Source: a bacterium (GTDB lineage: Bacteria; Patescibacteriota; Minisyncoccia; Phycocordibacterales; Phycocordibacteraceae). Taken from it: a stretch of DNA of 41,270 nt. This document shows, piece by piece, positions 4,860 to 41,270 of this stretch. The notes beneath the pieces were generated by a model. The model saw only the letters and a list, made by a program, of their open reading frames with translations, did not search any database and had not been told where the DNA came from. Made by a program: the position numbers and the translations under genes. The stretch's first letter is position 1. Each line of letters opens with the position of its first letter. The stretch is from positions 1 to 41,270 of the forward strand of contig JAHFMR010000006.1 in the NCBI GenBank assembly GCA_023267755.1, in the 5' to 3' direction.

Positions 4860-5663
4860 TTAAGACCCACAAACAGCGCGCAGGTCGGCGAGGTCGGCTG
4901 TGGTGGGCGCTAAGTTACCGCTCTCGTTCTTGGCGAACATAATCGACTTGGGGTCGCTGTTGTGTCCGAGACCGATAGCGTGACCGAACTCGTGCGCGAG
5001 CACCCGTTCGAGCTGGAGGGTGCCAACAAACTCGAAGATGTTGATGCGTTCGCCCGAGACATCGCGAGAGTATTGTCCCTCCTCGAAGGTGCGCCCAGCA
5101 CTCTGGTTGAACTGTGCTACCACCGCGTTTAAGTCAGCAACGCCTTTGTTGAAGACGGCAACCTGATTATTGATGGTGTCCCCGAGCGCGTTCAGCGAGT
5201 CGCGCTCGGCGTTCAGTGTGGCTAGCTCGCTCGCTGTAGCGCCGCCGCGCGCGTTTACCGTCGCCACCTCCTGATTGTAGGTGGTCTGCCGCGCTGCGTA
5301 GTCAGCCTGGAGCGAGTCGAGTGTCGTGCGCGCGGCGTCGGCATTAGCCTGCTCTCGCGCTATCTCGGTGCCGAATTTAGCGTTCGCCTCGCGCGAGTCG
5401 TAGATGAGATTGACCTTCAATGCTGCGGTCGGATCATAGGTGAGGATCGTCTTTCCTGCTGCTTTGTTCCAGATCGCCACCGCAGTCTTGGTGTTGGTGA
5501 TGAGTTCAGTCTTCGTGATATCAAAGCGCGGATCCACCGTACCGATAGCATATGGGATTGGGTGCACACACGAACGCGTCTGCTGGTAGAAGTAATATGC
5601 TCCGCCTCCCACCGTGAGCGCGATAGTTACGACGATAAGCCAACGCAGTGCCTTTCCTATCAT
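4860..5663 (-). CDS. Membrane-anchored metzincin (M10/matrixin-like) zinc metalloprotease with coiled-coil insertion
   Basis: N-terminal TM helix; HEFGHAIGLGHNSDPKSIMF (HExxHxxGxxH plus Met-turn); start codon overlaps dnaX stop. Confidence 0.85.
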   Translation of the reverse strand: MIGKALRWLIVVTIALTVGGGAYYFYQQTRSCVHPIPYAIGTVDPRFDITKTELITNTKTAVAIWNKAAGKTILTYDPTAALKVNLIYDSREANAKFGTEIAREQANADAARTTLDSLQADYAARQTTYNQEVATVNARGGATASELATLNAERDSLNALGDTINNQVAVFNKGVADLNAVVAQFNQSAGRTFEEGQYSRDVSGERINIFEFVGTLQLERVLAHEFGHAIGLGHNSDPKSIMFAKNESGNLAPTTADLADLRAVCGS

Positions 5664-6715
5664 TCTCCTTGATAGAGCTCCAGGACCGCAAGCTCCAGAG
5701 GTAGGGCGGGGATTGGCGCGTAACGGATGCGTTCTGCAGCAGTAAGGAAGGCAAGCATCGTCGCGTGAGTAATGTGGGACATCGTAAGTCCCACATTAGG
5801 GTTGGCGAACTTCTCAAGCGCAGCGAACTCATCAGTGCCAAGCTCTTGCTCGAGCTCTTCGCGCAGATCAGGCGCGTAGCGGATAAGCAGTGTGGTGCGC
5901 AGGGCCTCGAGCACCAGCTCGAGATAGAGCTTCATATCCGCACCGGCCTTTGCTGTCTTCTCGATAGCGGCGAGCGCCTTGCCTCGCTCGCCCGCGGCGA
6001 GCGCGCTGATGAGCGCGTGTACCTGTTCCTGTTTAGGCGCTCCCGTCACCTCCTCGACTATCTCGCGTGAGAGTTGCTTGGAGGTCCGGCCTCCAAGTGT
6101 TTTTTGGAGGATCGAGAGCGCGTCGCGATATGAACCGTCGCCCAGAAGCGCAATAAGCTCGGCGGCATCTGGAGCGAGCGTGTAGCCCTCCTTCTTCGCG
6201 ACTGCCACGACCATTTTGGCCGCTACAGCACGCGTCGGCTTCTTAAACTCGAACACCTGACAACGTGATTGCACGGTCTCGGGTACCTTCTCGAGCTCGG
6301 TCGTCGCGAGGATAAAGACTGCGTGTGCGGGCGGCTCCTCGAGCGTCTTGAGAAAGGCGTTCCACGCGCCCTTGGAGAGCATATGCACCTCGTCGAGAAT
6401 GTAGACCTTGTAGGGAGAGGAGAACGGGAGCGTGTAGACACCCTCGGTGAGCGCGCGGATATCCTCGACACTATTGTTACTCGCGGCATCAATCTCGTAG
6501 AGATCATTCTCACCACAGCCGATCTCGCGCGCGAAGATGCGTGCCACTGAGGTCTTACCTAGCCCGCGACTACCGGCAAAGAGGTAGGCGTGCCCGATTG
6601 TTTTACTCCTCGCTGCCTCTGCAAGCGGCTTGGTGACCTGCTCCTGCCCGACAACATCTGCGAAGGTCGCAGGTCGATGCGTTCTATATAAACTCTGATG
6701 CGCCATAGTGTCCAA
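5660..6715 (-). CDS. dnaX: DNA polymerase III subunit gamma/tau (short form)
   Basis: SLYRTHRPATFADVVGQEQVTKPL, GSRGLGKTSVARIFA, YEIDAASNNSVEDIRAL, VYILDEVHMLSKGAWNAFLKTLEEPP, ATTELEKVPETVQSRCQ. Confidence 0.95.
   Translation of the reverse strand: MDTMAHQSLYRTHRPATFADVVGQEQVTKPLAEAARSKTIGHAYLFAGSRGLGKTSVARIFAREIGCGENDLYEIDAASNNSVEDIRALTEGVYTLPFSSPYKVYILDEVHMLSKGAWNAFLKTLEEPPAHAVFILATTELEKVPETVQSRCQVFEFKKPTRAVAAKMVVAVAKKEGYTLAPDAAELIALLGDGSYRDALSILQKTLGGRTSKQLSREIVEEVTGAPKQEQVHALISALAAGERGKALAAIEKTAKAGADMKLYLELVLEALRTTLLIRYAPDLREELEQELGTDEFAALEKFANPNVGLTMSHITHATMLAFLTAAERIRYAPIPALPLELAVLELYQGE
5770..5798. repeat. In-gene palindrome in dnaX, 11-bp perfect arms
   Basis: taatgtgggac-atcgtaa-gtcccacatta; the GGGACATCGTAAGTCCC core recurs at 41217-41233. 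Confidence 0.85.
6077..6097. repeat. In-gene palindrome in dnaX, 8-bp perfect arms
   Basis: cttggagg-tccgg-cctccaag. Confidence 0.55.
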
Positions 6716-11292: not shown

Positions 11293-12063
11293 ATGAAAAT
11301 CTATTCCTGGAATATGCTGTACCGCAATAAGCGCCTCGATGAGGCCTTTACCTTTGTATCGAAGTCAGACTTCGATATTTTCTGTCTCCAAGAAGTGCCG
11401 GTTGAGTTCCTTGCACGCTTACGCACGCTCCCCTTCCATCTGGCAGAGACGATTGACGTCGAACGATTGCTCGGTGAAGTGAAGCGCAATCATCTTGTCA
11501 TTCTCTCTCGCAATGCTATCAAGAATCAAAGCGTCATCCCATTTCCTAATTATTGGCCGCTCTTACCGTGGCGCACCCACCTGTTCGTGCGTAGTATGCG
11601 ACCGTGGTTCTGGTCAAAGATTCAGAACCGCAGCGCGCTTTATGTAGATAGTATGGTCGGCGAGAGACTGGTGCGCGTGTTCAATTTACACACCGCCATC
11701 ACCCGAGTAGACTGGCGCATCCGCGAGTTCGAACAAACAATGGCCGAGCGCGACCCGACACTACCGACGATTGTCTGCGGTGACTTCAACGTGATGGAAT
11801 CTCCGAAAGTGTCGATATTGAATTGGCTCGTCGGCGGAAAGATAGGCGATGCGCTACGCTTTACGCGCGAGCGAACGCGTCTCGAGAAGCATTTTGTCGA
11901 ACACGAGCTGATGAATCCGCTTCGCGGAGTAACGACCCATCCCTTCTCGCGGAGTCAGCTCGACCACATCCTCGTCTCCAACTCTTTCTCAATACAAAAC
12001 GCCCTTGTCCTCAACGACCGCCACGGCTCTGACCATCATCCTATTTCTGTCGAAATCTTATAG
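11293..12063 (+). CDS. Endonuclease/exonuclease/phosphatase family protein
   Basis: MKIYSWNMLYRN, FDIFCLQEV, TIVCGDFNVMESP, SQLDHILVSN, GSDHHPISVEI. Confidence 0.9.
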   Translation: MKIYSWNMLYRNKRLDEAFTFVSKSDFDIFCLQEVPVEFLARLRTLPFHLAETIDVERLLGEVKRNHLVILSRNAIKNQSVIPFPNYWPLLPWRTHLFVRSMRPWFWSKIQNRSALYVDSMVGERLVRVFNLHTAITRVDWRIREFEQTMAERDPTLPTIVCGDFNVMESPKVSILNWLVGGKIGDALRFTRERTRLEKHFVEHELMNPLRGVTTHPFSRSQLDHILVSNSFSIQNALVLNDRHGSDHHPISVEIL

Positions 12064-12106: not shown

Positions 12107-14536
12107 ATGAGTAACCGCTTACTTATCGTCGAGTCGCCCACCAAGGCGCGTACCATTGGCAATTATTTAGGCAAGGGCTATACGGTCCTCGCCTCGGTGG
12201 GCCACGTGCGCGACCTCCCCAAAACGAATAAAGACGCGGTAGATATTGAGGGCGGCTTTATCCCACGCTACGTAATCCCCGCCGAGAAGCGTGAGATAAT
12301 CGAGAAGATCCAGCATGCCGCCGCCAAGGCCGACGAGATCTATCTCGCGACCGACCCCGATCGCGAAGGCGAGGCTATCGCCTGGCACATTAAGGAGGTC
12401 GCCAAGCTGAAGAAGCCTAAGCGCGTCGCCTTCCACGAAATAACCAAGGCTGCTATCGAAGAGGCGCTTGCCCACCCGCGCACTATCGATGAACACTTGC
12501 GCGAGGCGCAAGAGGCACGGCGCGTACTCGATCGCATCGTCGGCTACGACCTCTCCGGTCTCATCTGGAAGAAGGTCCGCTACGGTCTCTCGGCCGGCCG
12601 CGTACAGAGCCCCGCGCTCCGCATCCTCGCTGAGCGCGAGCGCGAGATTAAAGCATTCATCCCGGTAACCTATTTCGTATTGAGCGCGCTCTTCCGCTCC
12701 AAGACCGGCGACCTCGCGACGACCTGTACCGAAGAGCCTAAGACGCGCGAGGAGGCCGATCGAATCGTAAACACGGGTCGAAGCGCCGCATGGAGCGTAG
12801 CCGATATAAACGAGCGCGCCGAAGAGCGTAACCCGCGACCGCCCTTCACCACCTCGACCCTCCAACAGACTGCGTCGACCCGGCTCGGCTTCGCCCCCTC
12901 ACGCACGATGCGTGCTGCGCAGAAGCTCTACGAGGCCGGTCATATCACCTATATGCGTACCGACTCGGTAAATCTTGGTGCAGAGGCTGTCGCGAAGATG
13001 GCGAGCGTTGTCGAGAAACAATTCGGCAAGGACTATGTGCAGGTGCGCGTCTATAAAACGACAAGTAAGAATGCGCAGGAAGCGCACGAAGCTGTCCGCC
13101 CCACCGACCCTTCTCACGAGCGCGCGGGCGCGACATCCGACGAGGTGGAGCTCTACGCGCTTATTCGCACTCGTGCGCTCGCCTCGCAGATGGCCGCTGC
13201 CAAGGTGATGCGCACGTCGGTGAGTGCGAAGGCCGACAAGGCAGATATTCCGTTCTTCACCGCGAACGGTTCGCGCACTCTCTTTCCTGGCTGGCTTGCG
13301 CTCGACACCGCTGCACGCGGTGAGGATGTCGAGCTCCCAAAGCTCGTTGTCGGCGACTCCCTCTCGCTCATCTCACTCGCAGCAGAGGAGAAGCAGACCG
13401 AGCCGCCAAATCGCTACACCGAAGCAGGGCTTATCAAGGAGCTGGAGAAACGTGGTATCGGCCGCCCTTCGACCTACGCGTCTATTATGAAGACGATTCA
13501 GGATCGCGGCTATGTAGAAAAGCTCGGCCGCGCACTGAAGCCCACTGCCACCGGTATGGTCGTCTCGGGCTGGCTCGAGGAACACTTCCCGCAGTACGTG
13601 AGCGACACCTTCACCGCCGAGATGGAGAACGAGCTCGATGAGATAGCACGCGGCGAGCGTGGCTACACACAAACACTGCAGGAATTTTATGGCCCCTTTG
13701 AGAAGGCGGTGCGTGCTAAGGATAAATTGCCTAAGGCCACATCGCTCGGCGATGTGCCAAGCGAATTCCCCTGCCCGCTGTGCGGCAGCCCGATGGAGTT
13801 TAAGCTCGGTCGTGGCGGTGTCTTTATGAGCTGTAAGAAGTATCCCGAATGCCTGGGCGCCCGCACCGAAGAAGGACTCGAGCTTAAGGGTGATGAGCCG
13901 ATCGGTGTGCACCCAGAAACTGGCGCACCTATTTATATAAAGACCGGAAGATTCGGCCCGTATGTTGAAATGGCTCTCCCAGAACCCGAATCAAGGTTCG
14001 ACCTTAAATCCGAATCCTCAAGGTCGAACCTTGATTCGGATGAAAAAGAATCGAAGAAGAAAACGCCGGCCAAACGTGGTAAGGGTCGCCCCAAAACGGC
14101 CGCCAAGCGCGCGAGCATCCCTGCCGGCACCGATCTTGCGGGTGTTACACTCGCCGATGCAGTGCGCTATCTCTCGCTCCCGCGCGAGCTGGGGATGCAC
14201 CCGAGTACCGGCAAACCCGTCTTCGCCTCAACCGGACGATTCGGTCCGTATGTCGGCAGCGACGGTGAGTTCCGCTCGCTCAAGGCCGCGGTCGGCGAAC
14301 CCTACACTATCACCCTCGACCAAGCACTCACGCTCCTCGCTGAGCCGAAGAAGCCGCCGAAGGGTGTTGAGATTGTACGAGAGATTGGCAAGCACCCGAA
14401 GACCGGCAAGGTCATCTCACTCTACAAGTCGAAGCAGGGTTACTTCCTCAAGAAAGGTCTCCGTCGTATTTATCTCCCTGATTCCGTCGCTCCCGACGCG
14501 CTCACTCCCCCAGAAGCAGCTGAATATTTGAAATAA
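12107..14536 (+). CDS. topA: DNA topoisomerase I
   Basis: LLIVESPTKARTIGNYLGKGYTVLASVGHVRDLP; DREGEAIAWHIKE; ITYMRTDSVNLG; CPLCGSPMEFKLGRGGVFMSCKKYPEC; C-terminal repeat modules. Confidence 0.98.
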   Translation: MSNRLLIVESPTKARTIGNYLGKGYTVLASVGHVRDLPKTNKDAVDIEGGFIPRYVIPAEKREIIEKIQHAAAKADEIYLATDPDREGEAIAWHIKEVAKLKKPKRVAFHEITKAAIEEALAHPRTIDEHLREAQEARRVLDRIVGYDLSGLIWKKVRYGLSAGRVQSPALRILAEREREIKAFIPVTYFVLSALFRSKTGDLATTCTEEPKTREEADRIVNTGRSAAWSVADINERAEERNPRPPFTTSTLQQTASTRLGFAPSRTMRAAQKLYEAGHITYMRTDSVNLGAEAVAKMASVVEKQFGKDYVQVRVYKTTSKNAQEAHEAVRPTDPSHERAGATSDEVELYALIRTRALASQMAAAKVMRTSVSAKADKADIPFFTANGSRTLFPGWLALDTAARGEDVELPKLVVGDSLSLISLAAEEKQTEPPNRYTEAGLIKELEKRGIGRPSTYASIMKTIQDRGYVEKLGRALKPTATGMVVSGWLEEHFPQYVSDTFTAEMENELDEIARGERGYTQTLQEFYGPFEKAVRAKDKLPKATSLGDVPSEFPCPLCGSPMEFKLGRGGVFMSCKKYPECLGARTEEGLELKGDEPIGVHPETGAPIYIKTGRFGPYVEMALPEPESRFDLKSESSRSNLDSDEKESKKKTPAKRGKGRPKTAAKRASIPAGTDLAGVTLADAVRYLSLPRELGMHPSTGKPVFASTGRFGPYVGSDGEFRSLKAAVGEPYTITLDQALTLLAEPKKPPKGVEIVREIGKHPKTGKVISLYKSKQGYFLKKGLRRIYLPDSVAPDALTPPEAAEYLK
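13986..14039. repeat. In-frame palindromic element in topA: 20-bp perfect arms, 14-nt spacer
   Basis: ccgaatcaaggttcgacctt - aaatccgaatcctc - aaggtcgaaccttgattcgg; each arm is itself a mini-hairpin (AAGGT-NNN-ACCTT). Confidence 0.92.
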
Positions 14537-18017: not shown

Positions 18018-18890
18018 ATGTTGAAAATCTTGTGCATCGCAGGGCCGACCGCCTCAGGCAAGTCAAGTCGAGCTGTCGAAGAAGCGCTCGCGCGTGATGG
18101 TGAGGTTATTTCTATCGACTCACGTCAGGTCTATCGCGGGCTCGATATCGGGACCGAGAAGATATCGGCTACCGAAATGCGCGGCGTGCCGCACCATCTA
18201 ATAGATATCCGCAATCCCGAGGAGAATTATTCTGCCGGCGACTTTGTCACCGATGCAATACGCTTGATTGAAGAAATCACAGCGCGTGGGAACCTGCCGA
18301 TACTTGTCGGCGGGACGCACTTCTACTTCGATGCGCTTCTTAACGGCCTCCCAATCGGTGTCGACGCCAATCCGCAGCTGCGTGAAGAGCTCGAGCAGCT
18401 CTCGACCGAGGAGCTGTATGCGCGCGTCCGCCAAGCGGACGCGCGCCGTGCCGCAGAGCTGGACCCGCAGAACCGTCGCCGACTTATCCGCGCGCTCGAG
18501 ATTATCGCCTCCCTTGGGCACGTTCCACTCCGACACGAGGGGCACCCTCGTGCTGCACGAGGGTGCCCCTCGTGGGAGGTCGAGTGGATAGTGATTGACC
18601 CGTCGCGTGAAGAGCTGCGAGAGAGAATTAACACACGTCTCGCCACCGCCTTTAAGCGTGACCTCATCGAGGAGGTGCGCCAGGTGCGTACCCGTGTCGG
18701 CGATACGCGCCTTAACGAGCTTGGGCTCGAATATAGAATAGTCGGCGAGTACGTGTCCTCCTCCGCTGAAGCTACGGAGGACACGGCGCGTATCCAAGAA
18801 AAATTATTGCCGGTTCTATCGGCGAAGCTTTGGCAGTATGCCCGCCGCCAGAAAGCCTGGCTCCGCAAGCTTGGCCACTCGGCGTCCTAA
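18018..18890 (+). CDS. miaA: tRNA dimethylallyltransferase
   Basis: IAGPTASGKSSRAVEEAL, VISIDSRQVYRGLDIGTEK, GVPHHLIDIRNPEENYSAGDF, LPILVGGTHFYFDALLNGLP. Confidence 0.96.
   Translation: MLKILCIAGPTASGKSSRAVEEALARDGEVISIDSRQVYRGLDIGTEKISATEMRGVPHHLIDIRNPEENYSAGDFVTDAIRLIEEITARGNLPILVGGTHFYFDALLNGLPIGVDANPQLREELEQLSTEELYARVRQADARRAAELDPQNRRRLIRALEIIASLGHVPLRHEGHPRAARGCPSWEVEWIVIDPSREELRERINTRLATAFKRDLIEEVRQVRTRVGDTRLNELGLEYRIVGEYVSSSAEATEDTARIQEKLLPVLSAKLWQYARRQKAWLRKLGHSAS
18420..18446. repeat. In-frame palindrome 1 in miaA, 12-bp perfect arms
   Basis: gcgcgcgtccgc-caa-gcggacgcgcgc. Confidence 0.85.
18534..18574. repeat. In-frame palindromic element 2 in miaA, 20-bp perfect arms, 1-nt centre
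   Basis: cacgaggggcaccctcgtgc-t-gcacgagggtgcccctcgtg; each arm holds a mini-hairpin CACGAGG-GGCAC-CCTCGTG. Confidence 0.95.
18752..18785. repeat. In-frame palindrome 3 in miaA, 10-bp perfect outer arms
   Basis: cgtgtcctcc-tccgctgaagctac-ggaggacacg, encoding SSSAEATEDT. Confidence 0.85.
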
Positions 18891-20971: not shown

Positions 20972-21004
20972 AAGTAAAACCGCCCCGAAGGGGCGGTTTT
21001 ACTT
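20972..21004. terminator. Bidirectional intrinsic terminator
   Basis: aagtaaaaccgcccc-gaa-ggggcggttttactt between the convergent HIT-fusion gene and rpmG; A/T tracts on both sides. Confidence 0.93.
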
Positions 21005-35133: not shown

Positions 35134-35152
35134 TACAAGGTTCAACCTTGTA
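35134..35152. repeat. RAYT-associated palindrome copy 1 (upstream)
   Basis: tacaaggtt-c-aaccttgta, 9-bp perfect arms. Confidence 0.9.
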
Positions 35153-35180: not shown

Positions 35181-35840
35181 ATGGCACGCACTTTTTCATT
35201 CGCTCCCGGTGAGTTTTATCACTTGTATAATCGCGGCACAGAAAAGCGGAATATATTCACTTCTAAAGCAGACCGCGACCGGTTCCTTACGCTTCTCTAC
35301 CTAGCAAACCAAGACATTCCCGCTGACTTAAAATTACAAGGTTCAACCTTGTTAGAGATAGTGAAACCAAAAGCGGGAGCTCCGCTTGTCGAGATCGTCT
35401 GTTATTGCCTCATGCCGAATCATTTCCACTTACTAGTACGCGAATTAGAAGACGGTGGGATTAGTAAATTTATGCAAAAAATTACGACTGGATACACGAT
35501 GTATTTCAATAAACGCTCCGACCGGAATGGCGCTCTCTTCCAAGGAAGATTTAAAGCGACTCACGTAGCTGATGATCGATACCTGCGCTACCTCATCTCA
35601 TACATTCATCTAAACCCTGTAAAACTTATCGAACCAAAGTGGAAAGAGACGGGTATTGCCAATCAAGTACACGCCGAGCGCTACCTCGAGACATATACTG
35701 CTTCAAGTTATCCCGATTATCTAGGTAAAAAACGCGCTGAAGGAATGATTCTTACTAAAGAAGCTCTGCCCGAATATTTCTCCTCTGGCTCCGACTTCAA
35801 AACCTTCGTCACAGAATGGCTTACCTATAAGTCCGATTAG
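35181..35840 (+). CDS. REP-associated tyrosine transposase (RAYT; Y1/IS200-like HUH transposase)
   Basis: FYHLYNRGTEKRNIF; HUH motif LMPNHFHLLV; catalytic Tyr region KITTGYTMYFNKR; FQGRFKATHV...YLRYLISYIHLNPVK. Confidence 0.93.
   Translation: MARTFSFAPGEFYHLYNRGTEKRNIFTSKADRDRFLTLLYLANQDIPADLKLQGSTLLEIVKPKAGAPLVEIVCYCLMPNHFHLLVRELEDGGISKFMQKITTGYTMYFNKRSDRNGALFQGRFKATHVADDRYLRYLISYIHLNPVKLIEPKWKETGIANQVHAERYLETYTASSYPDYLGKKRAEGMILTKEALPEYFSSGSDFKTFVTEWLTYKSD
35336..35352. repeat. RAYT-associated palindrome copy 2 (inside the transposase gene)
   Basis: acaaggtt-c-aaccttgt, 8-bp perfect arms, encoding LQGSTLL just upstream of the HUH motif. Confidence 0.9.
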
Positions 35841-35861
35841 TACAAGGTTCAACCTTGTACT
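35839..35861. repeat. RAYT-associated palindrome copy 3 (overlaps the transposase stop codon)
   Basis: agtacaaggtt-c-aaccttgtact, 11-bp perfect arms. Confidence 0.92.
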
Positions 35862-39973: not shown

Positions 39974-40084
39974 CCTCCCTCCTGATACAATCCCCTTGTT
40001 GCGTGCAGAGAAGTAGGGAGCAGCTAACCCTTGCGCCGAAAGGCGCGAGTACCGCTCTTGAAAATCCGCACTGCTTTTATACAT

Positions 40085-41212
40085 ATGTCTGAAACGACAG
40101 AAGAGAAGAAGGTTGTCGCCCCCGCGGTGACTATCCACCTTCCCGATGGCCATCCGATGGCGGAGCTCCTCGGCGCTATCCCGACGCCGCCAGGCGCCGG
40201 TGACTTGGTCGAGGGCACCATCATCGCGATGGACCGTGGCCGCGTATACATTGACCTGCCTCCGTTTGGTACCGGCCTCATCTACGGCCGTGAGTACCTC
40301 AACGCCGCTGACGTCCTGCGCAAGGCTAATTCGGGCGACACTATCAGCGCTAAGGTTATCGACCCTGCTGGCCGCGACGGCTATATCGAGCTCTCGCTGA
40401 AGGAGGCGCGTCAGGCCGCTATCTGGGGCGAGGCCGAGACAGCTATCCTCGCGCAGACGGTCTACTCGCTCCCGGTGGAGGAGGCGAACAAGGGAGGTCT
40501 TATCCTCACCTGGCAGGGTATCCAAGGATTCCTCCCTGCTTCACAACTCTCTAAGGAGCACTACCCGCGCGTCCCCGAGGGCGATAAAGAAAAGATTCTT
40601 GGCGAGCTTATGTTGCTCATCGGTCATCCGCTCTCGGTGCGCATCATCACCGCTGACGCGAAGGAGGGTAAGCTTATCTTCTCCGAGCGCGCAGAGAACG
40701 AGGCTGAGGAGAAGGCGACCCTTATCGACAAGTACCAAGTCGGCGATACTGCCGAGGGAGAGGTCACGGGCGTGGTCGACTTCGGCGTCTTCGTCAAGAT
40801 TGAGCAAGGGCTCGAAGGGCTCGTCCATATTAGCGAGCTCGATTGGGGTCTCGTAGAGGATCCTCATTCACTCTTCTCAGTGGGCGACAAAGTGCGTGTG
40901 AAGATTATCGAGATTAAAGACGGCAAGGTCTCCCTCTCTATCAAGGCGCTTAAGGAGAACCCGTGGCACACCGCCGCCGAGCGCTACTCCAAGGGGATGG
41001 AGGTGCCGGGAGTTATCATCAAGTACAACAAGCACGGCGCGCTCGCTTCTATCGAAGAGGGTGTTGCTGGTCTCGTACACGTGAGCGAGTTTGAGTCGCC
41101 TGCGGCGCTTCGCGAGACACTCGAGCTCGGCAAGACGTATCCCTTCTCTATCGTGCTCTTCGAGCCGAAGGAGCAGCGTATGACGCTCACCTTCGCCGGA
41201 AAGAAGAAGTAA
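40085..41212 (+). CDS. rpsA: 30S ribosomal protein S1 (four S1 domains)
   Basis: GDLVEGTIIAMDRGRVYIDLPPFGTGLI; GDTAEGEVTGVVDFGVFVKIEQGLEGLVHISEL; GMEVPGVIIKYNKHGALASIEEGVAGLVHVSEF; start set at MSETTEEKK. Confidence 0.93.
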   Translation: MSETTEEKKVVAPAVTIHLPDGHPMAELLGAIPTPPGAGDLVEGTIIAMDRGRVYIDLPPFGTGLIYGREYLNAADVLRKANSGDTISAKVIDPAGRDGYIELSLKEARQAAIWGEAETAILAQTVYSLPVEEANKGGLILTWQGIQGFLPASQLSKEHYPRVPEGDKEKILGELMLLIGHPLSVRIITADAKEGKLIFSERAENEAEEKATLIDKYQVGDTAEGEVTGVVDFGVFVKIEQGLEGLVHISELDWGLVEDPHSLFSVGDKVRVKIIEIKDGKVSLSIKALKENPWHTAAERYSKGMEVPGVIIKYNKHGALASIEEGVAGLVHVSEFESPAALRETLELGKTYPFSIVLFEPKEQRMTLTFAGKKK

Positions 41213-41214
41213 GT

Positions 41215-41235
41215 TAGGGACATCGTAAGTCCCTA
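41215..41235. repeat. Palindrome 3' of rpsA, same core as the dnaX element
   Basis: tagggac-atcgtaa-gtcccta. Confidence 0.85.
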
Positions 41236-41241
41236 GATGCA

Positions 41242-41270
41242 ACCTCGCGGCGCCGGAGGCGCCGCGAGGT
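41242..41270. repeat. Strong GC-rich hairpin at the window edge, 13-bp perfect arms
   Basis: acctcgcggcgcc-gga-ggcgccgcgaggt; may continue past the window, and may be an rpsA terminator or another palindromic element. Confidence 0.7.

Follow-up and report, generated by a model that had tools for sequence, protein, structure and literature searches.

What accounts for a palindrome that stands both in frame within dnaX and directly behind rpsA? The two copies lie in a window of 41,270 nt, the whole stretch of DNA analysed here, which is contig 15 of a 21-contig, 583,495-base genome (G000; Patescibacteria, 98.67% complete). A sequence-only reading of the window had reported the 17-mer GGGACATCGTAAGTCCC at both places, and we find it exactly at 5776-5792 (dnaX) and 41217-41233 (after rpsA), with no third exact occurrence in the window. 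With up to 3 mismatches allowed, the window gives 2 matches where 0.13 are expected, and none of 100 shuffles has as many. The copies, which we assign to palindrome family A, and the genes beside them are:

5770-5798, minus strand: single family A palindrome in dnaX, ATCGTAA core; in frame, encoding NVGLTMSHIT; missing in DnaX of most relatives
5660-6715, minus strand: dnaX (DNA polymerase III gamma/tau), host gene; Pfam DNA_pol3_delta2 and DNA_pol3_gamma3
41215-41235, plus strand: single family A palindrome after rpsA, ATCGTAA core; 2 nt 3' of the rpsA stop
40031-41212, plus strand: rpsA-like S1-domain gene, with the second copy directly at its 3' end; Pfam S1

The dnaX copy reads TAATGTGGGAC-ATCGTAA-GTCCCACATTA, and its arms extend to 11 bp over 5770-5798, as had been proposed. 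The rpsA copy, TAGGGAC-ATCGTAA-GTCCCTA, spans 41215-41235 with 7-bp arms, and the loop ATCGTAA is indeed the same in both. The suggestion that arm bases outside the core differ yet remain complementary holds at two positions (T-A to A-T and G-C to T-A); farther out, the rpsA copy is unpaired. This copy does follow the stop codon directly, but the distance of 3 nt needs correction, as the 17-mer begins 4 nt past the TAA at 41210-41212 and the paired stem begins 2 nt past it. Folded as single-stranded DNA, the copies have z scores of -5.5 (dnaX) and -3.5 (rpsA). Beyond the second copy, the contig terminates at 41243-41270 in a G+C-rich hairpin, CCTCGCGGCGCC-GGA-GGCGCCGCGAGG, which is possibly both the rpsA terminator stem and the reason for the assembly break. 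A perfect 15-bp inverted repeat with a 3-nt loop at 20972-21004 (AAGTAAAACCGCCCC / GGGGCGGTTTTACTT) is terminator-like and lies outside the families described below.

Pattern searches of the genome returned 4 exact copies of the 17-mer and 0 of its reversed control. The sequence GGACNTCGTANGTCC gave 14 matches, 12 exact and 2 with one mismatch. One of the latter, in dnaG at C1:1564 (GGACATCGTGAGTCC), encodes the conserved primase motif QDIVSPY, is non-palindromic and was set aside as chance. The proposed dispersed family in coding and intergenic sites thus has about 13 members in this genome, in both kinds of site. They fall into two sub-types: GTCGTAC, with three copies at a transposase gene and inverted pairs in alaS, in holB and after gyrB; and ATCGTAA, found in dnaX, in tgt, after rpsA and at one intergenic site. 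Three contigs labelled as viral in IMG/VR (L005, L006 and L007) each contain the exact 17-mer, with flanks common to L006 and L007; they could be mislabelled host contigs or phages with the palindrome.

The gene at the GTCGTAC copies is one of five Y1_Tnp genes detected in G000 by a PF01797 search, 3 of which score above the cut-off. A scan of genome contigs with one protein of this kind gave no match; a scan with an alignment succeeded. These genes resemble RAYTs (REP-associated tyrosine transposases). The one at C5:12541-12774 has GGACGTCGTACGTCC family A palindromes upstream, inside and downstream, and its internal copy is in frame and encodes NVGRRTSYI, paralleling NVGLTMSHI in DnaX. In G000 itself the exact ATCGTAA core was not found at any RAYT. 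That core flanks RAYTs in the sister species G060 (L115) and G079 (L100), and the TTAGGGACATCGTAAGTCCCTAGATG stretch after rpsA is identical to the stretch upstream of the G060 gene.

Palindromes differ from one RAYT of G000 to the next, and the window itself holds a RAYT with a palindrome family of its own, B:

35181-35840, plus strand: RAYT-like Y1/HUH transposase gene, 219 aa, cognate of family B; PF01797 E 1.3e-10; NF047646 E 1.1e-13, sub-cutoff
35134-35152, plus strand: family B palindrome upstream of this gene, TACAAGGTTCAACCTTGTA
35336-35352, plus strand: family B palindrome inside the open reading frame, in frame (LQGSTL), in a variable loop before the HUH strand
35839-35861, plus strand: family B palindrome across the stop codon

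The AlphaFold model of this protein has a pLDDT of 91.8, and its best fold match in the PDB is 4er8 (E 2.4e-6), a RAYT bound to a REP hairpin; the hairpin-binding structures 2a6o and 2xm3 are also among the fold matches. Searched with a RAYT profile, the PDB sequences gave no match. In NCBIfam, the sole match of all seven RAYTs tested was NF047646 (REP-associated tyrosine transposase), with scores of 21-51 bits where the cut-off is 80. Across the RAYT alignment, the HUH histidines and a tyrosine before an FN motif are conserved. An exception is L020 in G000, where NFH replaces HFH and the protein may be catalytically dead. It belongs to a lineage found directly upstream of the RNase P RNA gene rnpB in five species (L020:1330-1992 and 2037-2380 on G000:C11, L116, L119, L124 and L106); in the copies read, two palindromes precede the gene. 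This lineage looks fixed in place.

The window also carries copies of two further RAYT-linked families, making three besides the ATCGTAA family A. Family C belongs to the RAYT at G000:C5:3180, which has a palindrome pair on either side, and family D matches the palindromes of the RAYT at G000:C2:915. Outside the window's RAYT, the additional copies and their hosts are:

13986-14039, plus strand: family B inverted pair (REPIN-like), in frame in topA, SRFDLKSESSRSNLDS
12107-14536, plus strand: topA (DNA topoisomerase I), host gene; Pfam Topoisom_bac
18534-18574, plus strand: family C inverted pair (REPIN-like), in frame in miaA, HEGHPRAARGCP
18018-18890, plus strand: miaA (tRNA dimethylallyltransferase), host gene; Pfam IPPT
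11357-11377, plus strand: single family D palindrome TATCGAAGTCAGACTTCGATA, in frame in an endonuclease/exonuclease/phosphatase-family gene

We traced families A, B and C through the whole of G000; its C2 and C11 RAYTs have palindromes of their own that fall outside this count. Outside RAYT genes they occupy 21 sites (A 7, B 8, C 6), of which 15 lie in frame within recognisable conserved genes: dnaX, tgt, holB and alaS for family A; topA, dnaG, uvrA, tyrS, eno and recG for family B; and miaA, ligA, tsaD, rnhB and trmD for family C. The remaining 6 are intergenic, 4 of them shortly past a stop codon (rpsA, gyrB, glyS and the gene at L343), with the rpsA, gyrB and glyS copies within about 20 nt of it. 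Every family C copy is part of an inverted pair; both single and paired palindromes are found in families A and B. Judged on the traced sites without a background gene set, enrichment of replication and repair genes among the hosts looks strong.

Related genomes show the same sites occupied, empty or differently filled. The sequence-only reading had named, as the case against itself, a genome with just two copies and a dnaX peptide conserved, under different codons, in homologs; besides the four copies in the genome, we find that DnaX of most relatives has the short loop FAKEKGITH in place of the NPNVGLTMSHITH of G000, where NPNVGLTMSHIT is the predicted inserted peptide. Related palindromes fill this loop in G018 and G077, an imperfect one is found in G013, and the palindrome has decayed in G003. 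The arms covary at this homologous site, the pair beside GGAC/GTCC being G-C in G000, A-T in G018 and T-A in G077. A stem of at least 7 bp is present at the Tgt slot in 9 of 28 genomes and at the MiaA slot in 11 of 28, compared with 6.5% of background windows. On a weakly supported tree, the carriers of the dnaX palindrome do not form a clade, and parsimony requires 10 changes for miaA, 6 for tgt and 3 for dnaX. The occupants come from several unrelated families. Many of them are within 0-1 mismatch of RAYT flanks somewhere in the genus, and few have such a match in the genome that carries them. The DnaX, Tgt and MiaA loops switch family or stand empty between species. In holB, a pair occupies the same site in G000 and G013, with both loops differing together.

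Most Tgt proteins of the genus (L164-L191) lack the CxCxxC zinc ligands, independently of palindromes, and empty sites read PLDPETVVPGTEPFTRAY. We had considered that insertion destroyed the zinc site of Tgt; this is ruled out because the empty relatives already lack it. A GGACATCSGATGTCC family is common to several RAYTs and to the MiaA and Tgt slots of other species (L065, L090 and L062 versus L193, L174 and L173), and is a candidate for horizontally spreading palindromes.

The association between RAYT and palindrome extends well beyond this genome. Of 58 genomes from the genus, 40 have PF01797, as do 43 of 96 from the phylum. Matched palindromes stand on both sides of 57 of 77 RAYTs in the genus, whereas random pairing of flanks, partly from related RAYTs, matches in 5% of cases, and 243 control open reading frames gave 4 matches, every one itself a RAYT. 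Outside the genus, 55 of 74 Patescibacteria RAYTs are bracketed, and a common finder applied to both sets yields 84 of 111. The upstream palindrome ends a median of 22 nt before the start codon and the downstream one lies at the stop codon. Internal copies occur in 29 of the 84 bracketed genes, and, counted in residues from the HUH motif, all 34 of these copies fall into two slots, -28 to -12 and +74 to +78. RAYT and palindrome covary: in a Mantel test with shared descent left in, protein identity correlates with palindrome similarity (r 0.28; 0 of 1000 permutations). The tetranucleotide GTAG is unenriched beside the palindromes (1.5% of copies versus 1.8% background). Predicted RAYT reading frames are 209-352 aa long.

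We consider it highly probable that both hairpins are members of a RAYT-linked, REP/REPIN-type family mobilised by cognate RAYTs without a GTAG tag. A RAYT, as a Y1 HUH nuclease, would recognise its own palindrome as a folded single strand, then cut and rejoin it, leaving single or paired copies at new places; the same palindrome brackets the RAYT gene itself. We infer movement because the families have this structure and their sites are found both occupied and empty. Harmful insertions would be expected to be lost, and surviving copies would therefore persist only where they are harmless, just past stop codons or in frame in tolerant protein loops. A related RAYT, since lost or else unassembled, probably set the dnaX and rpsA copies in place, because their ATCGTAA core matches RAYTs of sister species and the family A RAYT of G000 carries the GTCGTAC variant. 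Many palindromes lack a RAYT, which argues for RAYT turnover. Counting against mobilisation by RAYTs are the missing GTAG tag, the sub-cutoff NF047646 scores, the profile search of PDB sequences without a match and the lack of an exact-core RAYT in G000. Near-perfect stems without a strand-specific mark do not fit the recognition model from E. coli.

Several other explanations deserve weighing against mobilisation by RAYTs. Coincidence, by chance or driven by codons, is already refuted: the sequence is short, and the dnaG near match did arise by chance, but the window exceeds the 0.13 matches expected at 3 mismatches and the genome holds four copies against none for the reversed control. That the hairpins are transcription terminators or RNA-level regulatory elements with cores alike by accident is very improbable. 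The positions of the rpsA, gyrB and glyS copies so soon after stop codons would suit such a role, and read on its complement strand the rpsA copy is accepted by a terminator-like scan; on the sense strand, however, no T-run follows this copy, most traced sites (15 of 21) lie within reading frames, and neither RAYT bracketing nor family switching would be explained. A DNA uptake signal for competence pili seems scarcely credible. Uptake signals likewise occupy intergenic as well as coding DNA and form inverted pairs close to the ends of genes, but here there are about 14 copies per genome rather than hundreds, each RAYT has a different palindrome, and palindromes sit at the borders of RAYT genes.

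The palindromes might instead be immobile relics, inherited vertically and kept by selection on the hairpin or the peptide, with RAYTs domesticated for another job. The shared holB site, the RAYT lineage beside rnpB in five species and the lack, for most occupants, of an exact RAYT match within the same genome would all be expected of relics. Yet sites switch family or stand empty between species, the dnaX carriers are not a clade on the weakly supported tree and the G003 palindrome has decayed, and we regard this explanation as unlikely. A more speculative extension of RAYT mobilisation, to which we give a modest chance, is that the occupied sites are slots overwritten by RAYTs, an existing hairpin being replaced by the palindrome of the active RAYT through hairpin-guided homing of its Y1 nuclease. 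Overwriting would explain the joint difference of both loops in the orthologous holB pair between G000 and G013, the internal copies that RAYT genes keep at two fixed positions with a match to their own flanks, and the family switching of the MiaA, Tgt and DnaX loops.

In Patescibacteria, whose genomes are very small, few mobile elements are known, and for tnpA-Y1 genes a bias to large genomes has been reported (PMC6006769). The genomes studied here hold multiple RAYT-palindrome systems each, which add codons to core proteins and so create new loops. Recurrent slots in essential proteins form a record of insertion, replacement and decay, and with the 84 natural RAYT-palindrome pairs there is a direct route to decoding hairpin recognition without a GTAG guide.

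These elements can be compared with several known systems. The REP/REPIN-RAYT systems of Proteobacteria (REPtrons; PMC3116915, PMC8266576) likewise have a Y1 HUH protein, a cognate, RAYT-specific palindrome near its gene and single and inverted-pair copies elsewhere. Our proteins have the HUH motif, single catalytic tyrosine and Y1 fold as well as cognate flanking palindromes, and score below the NF047646 cut-off; inverted palindrome pairs occur as a unit, and the repeats are neither extragenic as a class nor tagged with GTAG, which guides cleavage in the RAYTs studied (PMC8266576). In contrast to REPtrons, the stems are mostly perfect and symmetric save for the central 1-7 nt, copy number is low, and the copies are mostly intragenic in genomes of about 0.6 Mb. 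IS200/IS605 elements share the Y1 HUH fold, but the RAYT-type protein is longer, solo and paired palindromes are dispersed, and the RAYTs of G000 carry different palindromes and may not be identical copies. Rickettsia palindromic elements (RPEs) also lie in frame within protein genes of a reduced genome. In-frame palindromic insertions of this kind are what we observe, the likeness being one of arrangement. RPEs have a greater length or a CGTC tag, and PMC3733652 describes CGTC repeats as not associated with a transposase; here a cognate RAYT has the same sequence on both sides of its gene.

A further parallel is the TIRtron. Passages of Di Nocera et al. 2013 (PMC3733652) describe TIRtrons/TIRYTs as RAYT-like genes flanked by untagged inverted, at times self-complementary repeats that also form dispersed families, and RAYT-like genes bracketed by untagged inverted repeats are what we find. 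The same passages report intragenic REPs in replication, repair and tRNA genes, with different REPs near the same recB site in two Xanthomonas species. The REPs described there are mostly intergenic, whereas 15 of the 21 sites traced here are in frame, and those passages make no mention of palindrome slots within RAYT reading frames. Our literature search, with subscription journals mostly outside its coverage, found no report of such a system in Patescibacteria. RAYT-palindrome units and intragenic REPs, then, are known; to our knowledge it is new that such a system exists in Patescibacteria, that its copies lie mainly within genes, that RAYT reading frames have fixed slots and that the same protein loops are refilled repeatedly.
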